This document shows, in pieces, positions 2,913 to 36,643 of a stretch of 36,643 nt of DNA; position 1 is the stretch's first letter; every line of letters begins with the position of its first letter. Source of the DNA: Paludibacter sp. (lineage in GTDB: Bacteria; Bacteroidota; Bacteroidia; Bacteroidales; Paludibacteraceae); assembly GCA_030653695.1 (NCBI GenBank), contig JAURYY010000231.1:1-36643 (forward strand), written 5' to 3'. Both the position numbers and the translations under genes were made by a program. Below the pieces are notes generated by a model. It was not told the DNA's origin. It did not search any database and worked only from the letters and a program-made list of their open reading frames with translations.

Positions 2913-5267
2913 ATGCATCCAACTATTCAACATACAATAGAACAAATAATTGCTGAAACCGGAACAGCAAGTAACCAACTGATTCCCATACTTCAGGCAA
3001 TTCAAGCTGAGTTTAATTACTTGCCGGTGGAAGCATTGGTGAAAGTATGTGAGTTGACCGAAATCACACAGTCTCAAATTACCGGTGTTTCTACATTTTA
3101 TTCACAGTTCAGACATTCGCCTGCCGGCAAACACACCATAAAAGTTTGTGTAGGAACAGCTTGTCATGTGAAAGGAGCCATGCAGGTTTTCGATGCTTTC
3201 AAACGTCAACTAAAGCTCGAAGGAGAAAACGATACGGATACCGAAGGACTTTACACCCTTGAACAAGTGGCCTGTTTGGGTTGCTGTACACTGGCACCGG
3301 TTGTTCAACTTGATCAGGTAACTTACGGACATGTAAGTCAAAGTGAAATAGAACAAGTAATTGAAGATTTTACGGGTAAAAGAAACACGGATGAAACTGT
3401 TAAAAATGAATTTATCCGAACCGATCTGAAAAAAGGAGAAATCCGTTTGGGTCTCGGTTCATGTTGTGTAGCAAGCGGAAGTGCCGAAATAGAAGTACAA
3501 GTAAACCATACAATTTCAAAAAACAGCATTGCAACCACTGTAAAACAGGTTGGCTGCGTGGGCATGTGTCATCAAGTGCCATTGCTCGAAATAATAGAGG
3601 AAAACAAAGAACCTGTTTTATACGCTAAAGTAAAGCCCGAAGATGTCAAAGAAATAATTTTAAAGCATTTTAAACCAACAGGTTTAGGTCAAAAAATAAA
3701 AAGCCGGTTTCTATCAACTGTAGAGAATATTTACAACAATCCCGAATCTTCGTCGGTAACAAACCGATTTTTGGATGTTCGCGAAAAACAGGTCGAAAAT
3801 TTTTTGAATAAACAAAAACACATTGCCACCGAACTCAAAGGAGTATTAAATCCTGTTGACATTCAAGAATATAAATCGAATGGTGGTTTTCAGGCTTTGC
3901 TCAAGTGTTTGCGAAATATGTCGCCACAAGAAGTAGTTGAACAAATCAAAATCAGTGGATTGCGCGGGCGTGGTGGAGCTGGTTTCCCAACCTGGATAAA
4001 ATGGGATATGGTTCGAAACGAGCAAACAGCCGAAAAATACGTGATTTGCAACGGCGATGAAGGCGATCCCGGCGCATTTATGGATCGCATGTTACTCGAA
4101 TCGTTTCCATTCCGTATCATCGAAGGTCTGATCATTGCCGCATACTCAACCGGTGCTAATAAAGCATTTTTATATATTCGTGCCGAATATCCTTTGGCAG
4201 TCAAACGCATTCAGGATGCGATCGAAGCCTGTAAAAACCATCATTTATTGGGCGATAACTTGTTAAGCAGCCATTTTTCGTTACAAATGGAAGTGTTTCA
4301 GGGCGCGGGAGCATTTGTTTGTGGCGAGGAAACCGCTTTAATTGCATCGATGGAAGGAGAGCGCGGTATGCCGAGAATTCGTCCGCCCTACCCCGCCAAA
4401 GAAGGACTGAATAAATTTCCAACTTTGGTGAATAATGCTGAAACTTTGGCCAATATAGCCTGGATTATCAGCAATGGAGCTGATCAATTTAAAGCCATTG
4501 GCACTACTGACAGTTGCGGAACAAAAGTTTTTGCATTAGCCGGAAAAGTAGCACGCGGAGGATTGATTGAAGTGCCTATGGGTATTACTATCAACGAAAT
4601 AGTGAATGATATTGGCGGCGGAATTCAGAACAACAAGAAATTTAAGGCGGTGCAGATTGGCGGTCCTTCGGGAGGTTGTATTCCGGCTTCGCTGGGCGAA
4701 ACACCCGTTGATTTCAAACATTTAATGGAAATTGGCGCCATGATGGGTTCGGGCGGATTGGTGGTGTTGGACGAATCGGATTGTGCGGTGGATATTGCCC
4801 GTTATTTTCTGAGTTTTACGCAAAATCAATCGTGCGGAAAATGTGTTTTTTGTCGAACCGGAACCAAACACATGCTCACTATATTGGAACGAATTTGCAA
4901 TGGCGATGGTAAAATGGAAGATTTGGAAATGCTTGAAAATCTTGCTAAAAAAGTAATTAAAGGAAGTTTATGCGGACTTGGAAAAACAGCCCCCAATCCC
5001 GTTTTAACCTCGATGAAATATTTCCGCGAGGAATATATTGCTCACATCAATGGTTCTTGTCCGTCCAAAAAATGCCAGGCTCTCATTCGTTATCATATCG
5101 ATGAATCATGTATCGGATGCACCAAATGTGCTCAGAATTGTCCGACTGATGCCATCGAAAATTTGCCGCATCAGTTGCATAGTATCAAACAGGAAAAATG
5201 CATCAAATGTGATGTTTGCCGCATGGTTTGCCCCATCGATTCGGTAAAGATTACCCCTAACTCCTAA
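2913..5267 (+). CDS. NuoE-NuoF fusion, NADH:(acceptor) oxidoreductase subunit with C-terminal 2x[4Fe-4S] domain
   Basis: N-term NuoE-like (CVGTACHVKGA...ACLGCCTLAP), second thioredoxin-like 2Fe-2S segment (CCVASG...GCVGMC), NuoF core (GLRGRGGAGFPTWIKW, CNGDEGDPGAFMDR, SCGKCVFCRTGT), C-term CIGCTKCAQNCP / CIKCDVCRMVCP. Confidence 0.92.
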   Translation: MHPTIQHTIEQIIAETGTASNQLIPILQAIQAEFNYLPVEALVKVCELTEITQSQITGVSTFYSQFRHSPAGKHTIKVCVGTACHVKGAMQVFDAFKRQLKLEGENDTDTEGLYTLEQVACLGCCTLAPVVQLDQVTYGHVSQSEIEQVIEDFTGKRNTDETVKNEFIRTDLKKGEIRLGLGSCCVASGSAEIEVQVNHTISKNSIATTVKQVGCVGMCHQVPLLEIIEENKEPVLYAKVKPEDVKEIILKHFKPTGLGQKIKSRFLSTVENIYNNPESSSVTNRFLDVREKQVENFLNKQKHIATELKGVLNPVDIQEYKSNGGFQALLKCLRNMSPQEVVEQIKISGLRGRGGAGFPTWIKWDMVRNEQTAEKYVICNGDEGDPGAFMDRMLLESFPFRIIEGLIIAAYSTGANKAFLYIRAEYPLAVKRIQDAIEACKNHHLLGDNLLSSHFSLQMEVFQGAGAFVCGEETALIASMEGERGMPRIRPPYPAKEGLNKFPTLVNNAETLANIAWIISNGADQFKAIGTTDSCGTKVFALAGKVARGGLIEVPMGITINEIVNDIGGGIQNNKKFKAVQIGGPSGGCIPASLGETPVDFKHLMEIGAMMGSGGLVVLDESDCAVDIARYFLSFTQNQSCGKCVFCRTGTKHMLTILERICNGDGKMEDLEMLENLAKKVIKGSLCGLGKTAPNPVLTSMKYFREEYIAHINGSCPSKKCQALIRYHIDESCIGCTKCAQNCPTDAIENLPHQLHSIKQEKCIKCDVCRMVCPIDSVKITPNS

Positions 5268-5311
5268 AGGGATATTAAAAAACAAGAAACGCGAAACTTG
5301 AAATATATTAA

Positions 5312-6856
5312 ATGTCTGAATTAAAAATAAATAACATATCTTACTCAGCCTATCCGGATGAAACCATCCTGACAGTAGCGCAACGTGCCGGAATTCATAT
5401 TCCAACTATGTGCTGGATAAAGGATTTTAAACCTTCGACTTCGTGCATGGTTTGTGTGGTGCAGGACGTGCGTAACGGCAAAATTCTGACTTCCTGTTCG
5501 GCATTGGTTGAAGAAGGAATGGACATTGAAACAGATAACGAGGAAGTCCTCGATATGCGGAAAACTGCATTGGAGTTGTTGCTGAGCGAGCATTACGGCG
5601 ATTGCGAAGCACCTTGTCAGCGTGTTTGTCCAGCCGAAATGGATATTCCGCTGATGAATAGGTTGATAGCTGAAGACAAAATGGACGAAGCATTGAAAAA
5701 TGTAAATGAAACCATTGCTTTGCCTACTATTTTGGGCTATATTTGCCCGGCACCATGCGAAAAAGCTTGTCGCCGCAAGGATATTGACGAAGCTGTTTCC
5801 ATTTGTTTATTGAAACGCTTTGTGGGCGAAAATGAAAAACCCCAATTAGAAATAAAACCTAAAAACGGAATCAAAGTAGCAGTTATTGGAGCAGGTCCGG
5901 CCGGTTTGTCAGCTGCATTTTATTTAGCTAAAAATGGTTTTAACTGTCATGTTTATGACAACAATGAACTGCCCGGCGGTAAAATGCGCACGGATATTTT
6001 GGAAGAAAAACTTCCGCGTAAAGTACTCAATTTAGAAATTGAAACCATAAAATCGTTGGGCGTTGAGTTTTTTCAAAAACAAATGATAAATGTCGAGATT
6101 ATTAAAAATGAATTTGCCGAAAAATATCAATTTGTTTTACTTACAATAGGTGCTGAAACAACGATTGATACATCAATATTCTGCAAAACTTCCTTTTCAA
6201 CCATCAAAGAATTAGACATTTACACGCTCAATAGTGTTTATATTTTTGCTCCTATACAAATTCCAAACAAAAGCAAAATGGCTGTCAGGGCTTCGGCTTT
6301 GGGGCGAAAACTGTGTGAGTGGACAATGGAATTCATCGACAAACAAGCGGTTTCGACAACAACCCGAAAGTTTAATTCGGTTTACAAAAGAATTGCAAAA
6401 GAAGAACAAGTTGAATTTTTAAAAGAATCCCTAAATCATTCGGGACAATTGAAAACTACTGATTACCTGATAGGATTTACAAAAAAACAGGCTATAAACG
6501 AAGCCCAACGCTGCCTGCATTGCGATTGCCGTAAAAAAAATGATTGCGATTTACGCAATTTATCGACCGAATACAAAGCAAGTCAGCGTGTTTATACCTT
6601 GGATAAACATAAACGAATGGTTAAAAATTTGGAGCACGAACAAATTATTTTTGAGAGCCTGAAATGCATAAAATGTGGAATTTGTATTCAAACAGCACAA
6701 CTCTCGGGCGATAAAACCGGTTTTGCATTTTCGGGTAGAGGTTTCGATGTTCAAATAGCCATTCCGGTCGAAAAAAACATAACTGAACTGAGCAATAAAA
6801 CAACAATTGATTGTGCTAATAACTGCCCGACAGGCGCTATTGCAATAAAAAAATAA
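5312..6856 (+). CDS. 2Fe-2S (NuoG N-term-like) + GltD-like FAD protein with C-terminal ferredoxin-like domain
   Basis: CWIKDFKPSTSCMVC...C 2Fe-2S motif; HYGDCEAPCQRVCP and CPAPCEKAC GltD N-term motifs; VAVIGAGPAGLSAAFYLAKNG FAD motif; C-term CIKCGIC...FSGRGFDVQI...CANNCPTGAI. Confidence 0.85.
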   Translation: MSELKINNISYSAYPDETILTVAQRAGIHIPTMCWIKDFKPSTSCMVCVVQDVRNGKILTSCSALVEEGMDIETDNEEVLDMRKTALELLLSEHYGDCEAPCQRVCPAEMDIPLMNRLIAEDKMDEALKNVNETIALPTILGYICPAPCEKACRRKDIDEAVSICLLKRFVGENEKPQLEIKPKNGIKVAVIGAGPAGLSAAFYLAKNGFNCHVYDNNELPGGKMRTDILEEKLPRKVLNLEIETIKSLGVEFFQKQMINVEIIKNEFAEKYQFVLLTIGAETTIDTSIFCKTSFSTIKELDIYTLNSVYIFAPIQIPNKSKMAVRASALGRKLCEWTMEFIDKQAVSTTTRKFNSVYKRIAKEEQVEFLKESLNHSGQLKTTDYLIGFTKKQAINEAQRCLHCDCRKKNDCDLRNLSTEYKASQRVYTLDKHKRMVKNLEHEQIIFESLKCIKCGICIQTAQLSGDKTGFAFSGRGFDVQIAIPVEKNITELSNKTTIDCANNCPTGAIAIKK

Positions 6857-16510: not shown

Positions 16511-17245
16511 TTATTTTGTCGAAATGGTCTGCGTAAACTCAATATTATCAATACAAACATACGCCGGAGTATTCATTCCCCATTGCCCTTTATCGCTCGA
16601 ATCGAATGTAAAAGTTACTTGATCCACTTTGCCAAGACTGCTTACATCTACTTTATTCCATGTATTCGACATGAATGTTTTGCCATCTCGGAAATCAGAC
16701 AAATAGTAATCAACAGCTGATTTATTAATATTATTCAAATAACCCGTTATCGTAACTTTAAACCAATCGCCGGCAACAAATTTTTTACTGACACCGGGAG
16801 TTCCGCTCATCATATCAAGATAAGCATAAGTCGAATTTGTCAACATCAGACTTTTAATGCTGAAATTTCCATAAACATTGCTATCGCACTGTAATGTGGC
16901 TGCTCCGTAAGCTAAGGCAAATTGTTTTGAACCTGAGGCTCCTGAGCCTGCCGAAACACTATATTGATTAGTGTAACCCGGCGTTGTTTTGTTTTTTTTG
17001 GCCGAACATGCAAATCCTGACCACGAGAACCATGCAGCATTGTAACTGTTGTTGAATGTTGCCACTTTGGTGGTAAAAAAGCCCGAACCATCTGAGCCGT
17101 TCCAAATACTGTCGACATTTAATTTAACATTTTCAAAATCGACAATGGTCGATACAGTTACCGAATCGGATGTTAATTCCGGTTCACACGAAGTTAACAC
17201 AATTGCAAATACGCTTAAAGCAAAAAATAATTTAATTGTTTTCAT
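16511..17245 (-). CDS. DUF4465 domain-containing lipoprotein (candidate BtuH-type corrinoid-binding surface lipoprotein)
   Basis: Lipobox FAIVLTSC, 244 aa with DUF4465-like features (NAAWFSWSGFACS, ...YVCIDNIEF); downstream of a cobalamin riboswitch. Confidence 0.82.
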   Translation of the reverse strand: MKTIKLFFALSVFAIVLTSCEPELTSDSVTVSTIVDFENVKLNVDSIWNGSDGSGFFTTKVATFNNSYNAAWFSWSGFACSAKKNKTTPGYTNQYSVSAGSGASGSKQFALAYGAATLQCDSNVYGNFSIKSLMLTNSTYAYLDMMSGTPGVSKKFVAGDWFKVTITGYLNNINKSAVDYYLSDFRDGKTFMSNTWNKVDVSSLGKVDQVTFTFDSSDKGQWGMNTPAYVCIDNIEFTQTISTK

Positions 17246-17430
17246 TTTTTTTTATATTATTGATTATTAAATAGATAATTTTCAATTCAACAAATAACAA
17301 AATGTCAATGCACAGGATGTAATTATCGTATCAGACAATTATAAAAATAAATGAAGAATGTGTACACGGTTGATGTGTTCAAACTCTGTTTGCCGTTAAT
17401 CCCGAAAGCAAAAACATAATTGTTGAAAAT

Positions 17431-17703
17431 GGCAGGTCTTCTGACTTGCTCCCGTAATTGAACGCCTTCCCGATTGGGTTGATAAGTTAAATTTGTTAAT
17501 AAGTGAGTCGTTTTTTTAAACTATCAACTATCAACTGTCAACTGTCAACTGTTTTAACCAGTGGCAAAAGTGTTGTTCAATACGTTTTTGTTAATCGTTA
17601 ATCATTTATTATTAACCATTAAACAGAGCTTACAGCAGCGGGTACTGTTCCGGAACTACACCGGATTCCCTTTTTATCGGTTCATCGAAACAATAAACCG
17701 ATA
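17431..17703 (-). promoter_or_regulatory. Cobalamin riboswitch (class I-like) with expanded peripheral arms
   Basis: RC contains AAAAAGGGAATCCGGTGTAGTTCCGGAACAGTACCCGCTGCTGTAAGCT, GCCACTG, CGGGAAGGCG and GCAAGTCAGAAGACCTGCC in canonical order; 5' hairpin TATCGGTT/AACCGATA. Confidence 0.95.
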
Positions 17704-17842
17704 CCAAAATCGAATGCAAAAATACATTTTTTTTTGAACAATATTGAACCATATCTTATTAATTTATCAACAAAAGGTTGTTTTCACTATCAATTCGGAT
17801 TTAATATGAAAATAATCAGCAATTTATGAAAGGTAAAAATAA

Positions 17843-22435: not shown

Positions 22436-22573
22436 GAATGTGGTTGAGTGGTTGAGTGGTTAATGGTTAATGGTGAATGGTTAATGGTGAATGGTTAATG
22501 GTGAATGGTGAATTGGTTGATGGGTTGATTAATGGTTAATTGGTGAAATGGTTGATTGGTTCATTGGTTGAGT
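22436..22573 (-). repeat. Degenerate 7-bp minisatellite (GGTTAAT/GGTGAAT on +) abutting the holA start codon
   Basis: Runs of tggttaa/tggtgaa/tggttga units with only one C on the + strand across ~138 bp. Confidence 0.93.
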
Positions 22574-36386: not shown

Positions 36387-36643
36387 GTTTCAAAGGTTTC
36401 AGAGGTTTCAGGGGTTTCAGGGGTTTTAGGGGTTTCAGAGGTTTCAGAAGTTTCAGAGGTTTCAGAAGTTTCAGAGGTTTCAGAGGTTTCAGAGGTTTCA
36501 GAGGTTTTAGGGGTTTCAGAGGTTTCAGAGGTTTCAGAGGTTTCAGAAGTTTCAGAGGTTTCAGAGGTTTTAGGGGTTTCAGAGGTTTCAGAGGTTTCAG
36601 AGGTTTCAGAGGTTTCAGAGGTTTCAGAGGTTTCAGAGGTTTC
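36387..36643 (+). repeat. 9-bp tandem repeat (GTTTCAGAG)n, 28 complete units plus a partial, continuing past the window edge
   Basis: Direct reading; all units exactly 9 bp, variants GTTTCAGAA, GTTTCAGGG, GTTTTAGGG. Confidence 0.97.

Follow-up and report, generated by a model that had tools for sequence, protein, structure and literature searches.

The window (the whole stretch of DNA that was analysed, 36,643 nucleotides) is contig C90 of a draft genome in 383 contigs, designated here G000. It carries on its reverse strand a cobalamin riboswitch, in agreement with the original prediction: cmscan matched RF00174 with 75.9 bits (E 3.7e-17, gathering score 31.5) over the full length of the model (positions 1-189), the aptamer reaching 310 nt compared to the 189 positions of the model. 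Its 5′ edge carries the motif TAnnTTTG, which we take to be a −7 promoter element of the Bacteroidota type and which was found near the 5′ end of 42 of 44 aptamers of the genus, the two exceptions beginning at a contig edge. Downstream of the aptamer, the hairpin predicted in the expression platform has a CGGG loop that could kiss the CCCG of L5. Such L5-L13 kissing is established for the cobalamin riboswitch class (PMC9600662), and it is by analogy with this class that the riboswitch of the window would exert a regulatory action. A regular expression for L5-L13 complementarity matched 13 of the 44 aptamers of the genus, this pattern being too strict to be informative. The putative target gene begins about 170 nt downstream of the aptamer and encodes a DUF4465 protein; B12 is bound by proteins of this family (PMC13398666), BtuH of Bacteroides (PMC8941943) serving as comparison. 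According to cmscan, this gene is followed on its 3′ side by a small SRP RNA and then by a tRNA gene. The same riboswitch - SRP - tRNA order was found in two other genomes (G022 and G023), whose riboswitches likewise lie upstream of DUF4465-related genes. At the end of the window (36387-36643), TRF detected about 28.6 copies of the nonamer GTTTCAGAG running to the contig end, an array that probably explains the contig break. The features of the locus are gathered in Table 1.

Table 1. Riboswitch, repeat arms and neighbouring features identified in the window
Feature	Position	Strand	Basis
Regulated gene (predicted): DUF4465 protein, B12-binding family	16511..17245	-	PF14717, E 8.9e-48
Expression platform: predicted hairpin P13/L13 (stem TTTGC/GCAAA)	17389..17412	-	read from sequence
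Cobalamin riboswitch aptamer (RF00174)	17414..17723	-	cmscan
Insert forming arm B (87 nt, flanked by GCCACTG and GGGAAGG)	17472..17558	-	7-22 nt in members of the genus without an insert
TATCAAC on the RNA strand (GTTGATA forward), end of the decayed 3′ strand of arm B	17478..17484	-	predicted partner: outermost unit, 17545-17549
Arm B 5′ strand, array AGTTGAC AGTTGAC AGTTGAT AGTTGAT AGTTT	17519..17552	-	TRF, score 54
Arm A: hairpin insert made of heptamers of the GGTTAAT type, RNA strand TTAATGGTTAAT-AATAAATG-ATTAACGATTAA	17591..17622	-	absent from orthologues; z −3.5
−7 promoter element TATTTTTG (TAnnTTTG, presumed) at the aptamer 5′ edge	17717..17724	-	sequence pattern
Array of GGTTAAT/GGTGAAT heptamers, immediately before the start codon of ORF 22435-21419 (-)	22441..22571	.	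TRF, sequence

Two arms, A and B, are inserted inside the RF00174 match and outside its conserved blocks, so that the repeats do belong to the aptamer. The coordinates and letters originally given for them (17591-17622 for arm A, 17522-17549 and 17478-17484 for arm B) proved exact. Arm A reads TTAATCGTTAAT-CATTTATT-ATTAACCATTAA on the forward strand and had been described as a hairpin with 11 of 12 possible pairs; we likewise found 11 of 12 complementary positions, and only 2 of 500 shuffled sequences were equally stable. This arm is missing from the orthologous riboswitches G022_C450 and G023_C126, in which the site measures 33-34 nt compared to 66 nt in the window, and the G005_C35 riboswitch is devoid of both arms. 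In arm B, positions 17522-17549 of the forward strand are TATCAAC TATCAAC TGTCAAC TGTCAAC. They are part of an array of 4.9 copies with 96% matches according to TRF, in which 26 of 27 positions match at lag 7, whereas 100 dinucleotide shuffles of the whole window gave at most 21. According to these shuffle tests, neither arm is attributable to chance. The four tandem heptamers reported in arm B are therefore present, as full AGTTGAY units followed by a partial fifth one, but they do not face a single GTTGATA: the opposite 3′ strand also contains decayed heptamers with the consensus TTAACNA.

It had also been proposed that this GTTGATA can pair in alternative registers with either of two perfect copies. 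A standard energy model, which includes neither tertiary contacts nor ligand, does not bear this out: GTTGACA, the outermost unit, is the predicted partner of the 3′ TATCAAC with a probability of about 0.9 (up to 0.92), whereas the probability that this TATCAAC pairs with the two perfect GTTGATA copies is close to 0, whether the arm is folded by itself or within the whole aptamer. The register is thus predicted to be fixed by the remainder of arm B; other registers can be drawn, but the model does not predict that they are populated.

The occupancy of the two sites was analysed in RF00174 matches gathered from 48 genomes of the genus, 91 aptamers from 45 genomes being parsed. The sites of insertion are fixed. 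Site B is filled in 62 aptamers, site A in 51, both in 38 and neither in 16, and at least one filled site was found in 41 of the 45 genomes; the 29 aptamers without arm B have 7-22 nt at this place. The second half of the aptamer set was obtained after the pattern had been noticed in the first half, and shows this pattern again. In the rest of the order, for which each genus was represented by one genome, about 2 of 123 aptamers are at least 240 nt long. TPP riboswitches, considered as a second host, were rejected, since they carry no insert and are uniform in length (94-100 nt). The inserts comprise at least five repeat families, assigned with hand-written patterns and, for a few of them, by eye; those found at site B include AGTTGAY/TTAACNA, CAGTRAA/CTGATAA, GACAACA/CTGTCAA, C-rich CCTCCCC hairpins and GTTAGAA.

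Comparison of these families with the phylogeny of the aptamer cores, built without the inserts, revealed a turnover. Placing the family labels on the core tree takes 28 changes, compared to 28.6 for shuffled labels, on a tree in which only 8 of 40 inner branches are starred as well supported; the starred clades themselves mix empty sites with AGTTGAY, CAGTRAA and CTGTCAA arms. Families are exchanged, and arms gained and lost, between very similar cores of related species: G000_C119 has an 8-nt loop and G016_936 an 85-nt CAGTRAA arm (cores 91% identical), G015_C99 carries CAGTRAA repeats and G023_C126 AGTTGAY repeats (92%), and G005_C37 is empty whereas G007_C309 carries CAGTRAA repeats (93%). 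Conversely, pairs of riboswitches from the same genome have a family in common in 11 of 20 cases compared to 3.5 expected (p = 0.001), and one genome, G016, harbors the same element in two riboswitches in opposite orientations. Since the families are scattered on the core tree and common within a genome, the inserts are tied more closely to the genome than to the lineage of the riboswitch. A separate observation concerns the 5′ strand of arm B, of which 41 nt are identical between G000_C90 and G022_C450 while the cores share 83% identity and the DUF4465 proteins about 40%; this could reflect recent transfer or selection. In addition, a second repeat-bearing B12 riboswitch of G000 spans a contig break (C71/C134, end of L090 and start of L091), and these two contig ends bear one and the same repeat and probably overlap.

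The heptamers of the riboswitches were also found between genes at many sites of the genus genomes that were searched. In the stretches of the window's genome that were searched, a loose pattern gave about 16 array sites, with 42 matches compared to 26 for the reversed control, and the GGTTAAT type builds several longer arrays, one of which lies in the window (Table 1). The G023 genome contains 39 matches to the arm of the window. In G016, the element shared by two riboswitches also forms heptamer ladder hairpins on the flanks of both tRNA genes in the spacer of an rRNA operon (L170, about 5000-5380), and near-identical copies of these hairpins occur at three places in the genome, which fits three rRNA operons, one of which was inspected. 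Extra sequence of about 40-65 nt was found in P12 of the RNase P RNA of G014 (L134), G017 (L144), G020 (L136) and G023 (L140), and in the last three it consists of C-rich repeat hairpins of the CCCTCTCC/GGAGAGGG type. This shows that dispersed repeats enter a second structured RNA, although these are C-rich repeats and not heptamers.

Overall, the explanation that we consider probable, taken jointly, is that dispersed heptamer repeats have repeatedly entered permissive loops of an ordinary cobalamin riboswitch predicted to control a B12-binding surface protein, arm B forming one long imperfect hairpin with one main register. The accessory loops would be occupied by members of the dispersed heptameric repeats of the genus, which would spread by some process acting on DNA; the repeats that fold back would be kept since they disrupt neither the ligand-binding core nor the GCCACTG/GGGAAGGC stem, and the arm B hairpin would hardly affect, if at all, the sensing of B12. 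The repeats look like tolerated genomic repeats and not like a device tuning length. Some observations fit this explanation less well: the length uniformity of the occupied arms, which exceeds what mere tolerance would lead one to expect (33 of the 45 arms of at least 70 nt measure 79-87 nt, across unrelated families), the 41-nt identity between G000 and G022 despite diverged cores and proteins, and the weak support of the tree within the genus. A search for a transposase, a target-site duplication or another mobilization mechanism of the heptamer repeats gave none, the comparison of filled and empty sites, in which no target-site duplication was apparent, being made by eye only.

The uniformity in length would be explained if arm B were a selected accessory helix, locked at about four heptads plus a cap per side whatever the family, whose length or shape matters for folding or contact and for which the repeats are a replaceable raw material kept at size. 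Several results favor this possibility. The AGTTGAY arms of riboswitches score 3-5 units (n = 11, nearly all with four complete units, one genome per species) compared to 3-15 for free arrays elsewhere; the unit number is narrower inside riboswitches (Levene p = 0.025, on related data points). Draft short-read assembly may shorten tandem arrays or hide unit differences, and the single-contig genome G016 likewise has a four-unit arm. The heptamer inserts also fold better than arrays located elsewhere (median z −3.2 vs −1.2, p = 4e-5), even though the free arrays were granted their best window and strand, which suggests that only inserts able to self-pair are kept. Finally, rungs of 4-5 bp separated by internal loops of 2-3 nt recur as a ladder in several families. 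We nevertheless regard a length-locked helix as rather doubtful, since arm B is lacking in almost a third of the aptamers, some with cores 89-93% identical, and since equal lengths could be inherited from a common 80-nt ancestral repeat. Compensatory covariation was rejected for the AGTTGAY arm, in which 29 pairs, many of them invariant, gave no instance of it, as was selection on the RNA strand through G.U pairs (sense strand more stable in 22 of 52 cases); in the absence of compensatory changes and of strand bias, selection on the RNA helix is unproven. An extension of the same idea, according to which the repeats land, or undergo conversion, preferentially in the accessory loops and unrelated families are repeatedly recruited as one functional RNA part, a length-locked ladder helix of interchangeable sequence, is unlikely.

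The original prediction favored another origin, a minisatellite expanded in place within tolerated loops, whose slippage could alter unit number and register and possibly tune the ligand response. It is favored by the perfect tandem heptamers, which face a matching strand, and heptamers are generally slippage-prone according to the citation of Mrazek et al. in PMC4679880. Part of this proposal holds, since the arms are derived from repeats, lie inside the aptamer in tolerated loops and are gained and lost between related species. However, relatives differ by gain, loss or replacement of whole arms and not by unit steps, whole families being swapped, and expansion of the array in place is not supported. 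The predicted variation in length was not recovered either: the unit number is nearly constant across species, and unit number varying between close relatives, as expected of a hypervariable minisatellite, was not found with one genome per species and drafts that may hide differences. Together with the near-zero probability predicted for the alternative registers, this makes slippage-driven tuning highly improbable. Mobilization of the arms as REP- or MITE-type elements by a transposase appears extremely unlikely. The repeats are indeed dispersed, palindromic and present in both orientations, and Y1 transposase genes were found in 21 of 24 genomes, but 20 Y1 loci are bordered by ordinary GC-rich REP-like hairpins and the heptamer arrays adjoin none of them; furthermore, the heptamers located elsewhere differ from REPs in forming tandem arrays whose copy number varies. 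The involvement of RAYT/REP mobilization was rejected on this ground, the REP-like hairpins flanking the common Y1 genes being of another kind. As a side observation, stand-alone Y1 (RAYT-like) genes number at most 10 per genome, and many have their own short GC-rich REP-like hairpins of differing sequence (L215-L234).

Our literature search, most subscription papers lying outside its scope, retrieved no report of repeats filling riboswitch arms. The repeats described here nevertheless resemble known elements: they consist of tandem 7-nt units with many dispersed noncoding copies, like the STRRs of cyanobacteria. Heptanucleotide repeats occur in the tRNA-Leu introns of these bacteria. STRR heptamers have also been reported within the RNase P RNA of heterocystous cyanobacteria (Vioque 1997, known from its title cited in PMC2858038). 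In these cyanobacterial RNAs as in the riboswitches, 7-nt tandem repeats dispersed in the genome are lodged in the peripheral helix of an RNA with a defined structure; in contrast, the host is here a riboswitch of Bacteroidota, with two sites, several families exchanged at one site and complementary paired arms, and the insert of P12 in the RNase P RNA of the genomes analysed here is a C-rich repeat, not a heptamer. Our results thus extend the cyanobacterial RNase P RNA phenomenon to heptamer repeats entering structured RNAs in Bacteroidota. Furthermore, near-identical B12 aptamers whose only difference lies in zero, one or two long repeat arms, of unlike sequence, constitute a natural experiment on riboswitch architecture. 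The P6 accessory region of cobalamin riboswitches is highly variable (PMC9600662); both arms appear to be located there, the match between this name and the model positions being our own, and the source of the variation is here identifiable as dispersed heptamer repeats. Direct TAACTGA repeats were reported in Beggiatoaceae, Cyanobacteria and five Bacteroidetes, including Paludibacter propionicigenes with two sets, and were proposed as binding sites of a translational regulator, in a paper that does not mention riboswitches (MacGregor 2015, PMC4679880). Arm B of G016_936 carries the identical heptamer TAACTGA four times, and these copies, G016 being taken as P. propionicigenes, are likely one of the two published sets. 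Repeats of the TAACTGA type, reported as possible regulator-binding sites, can therefore instead be parts of a riboswitch arm.
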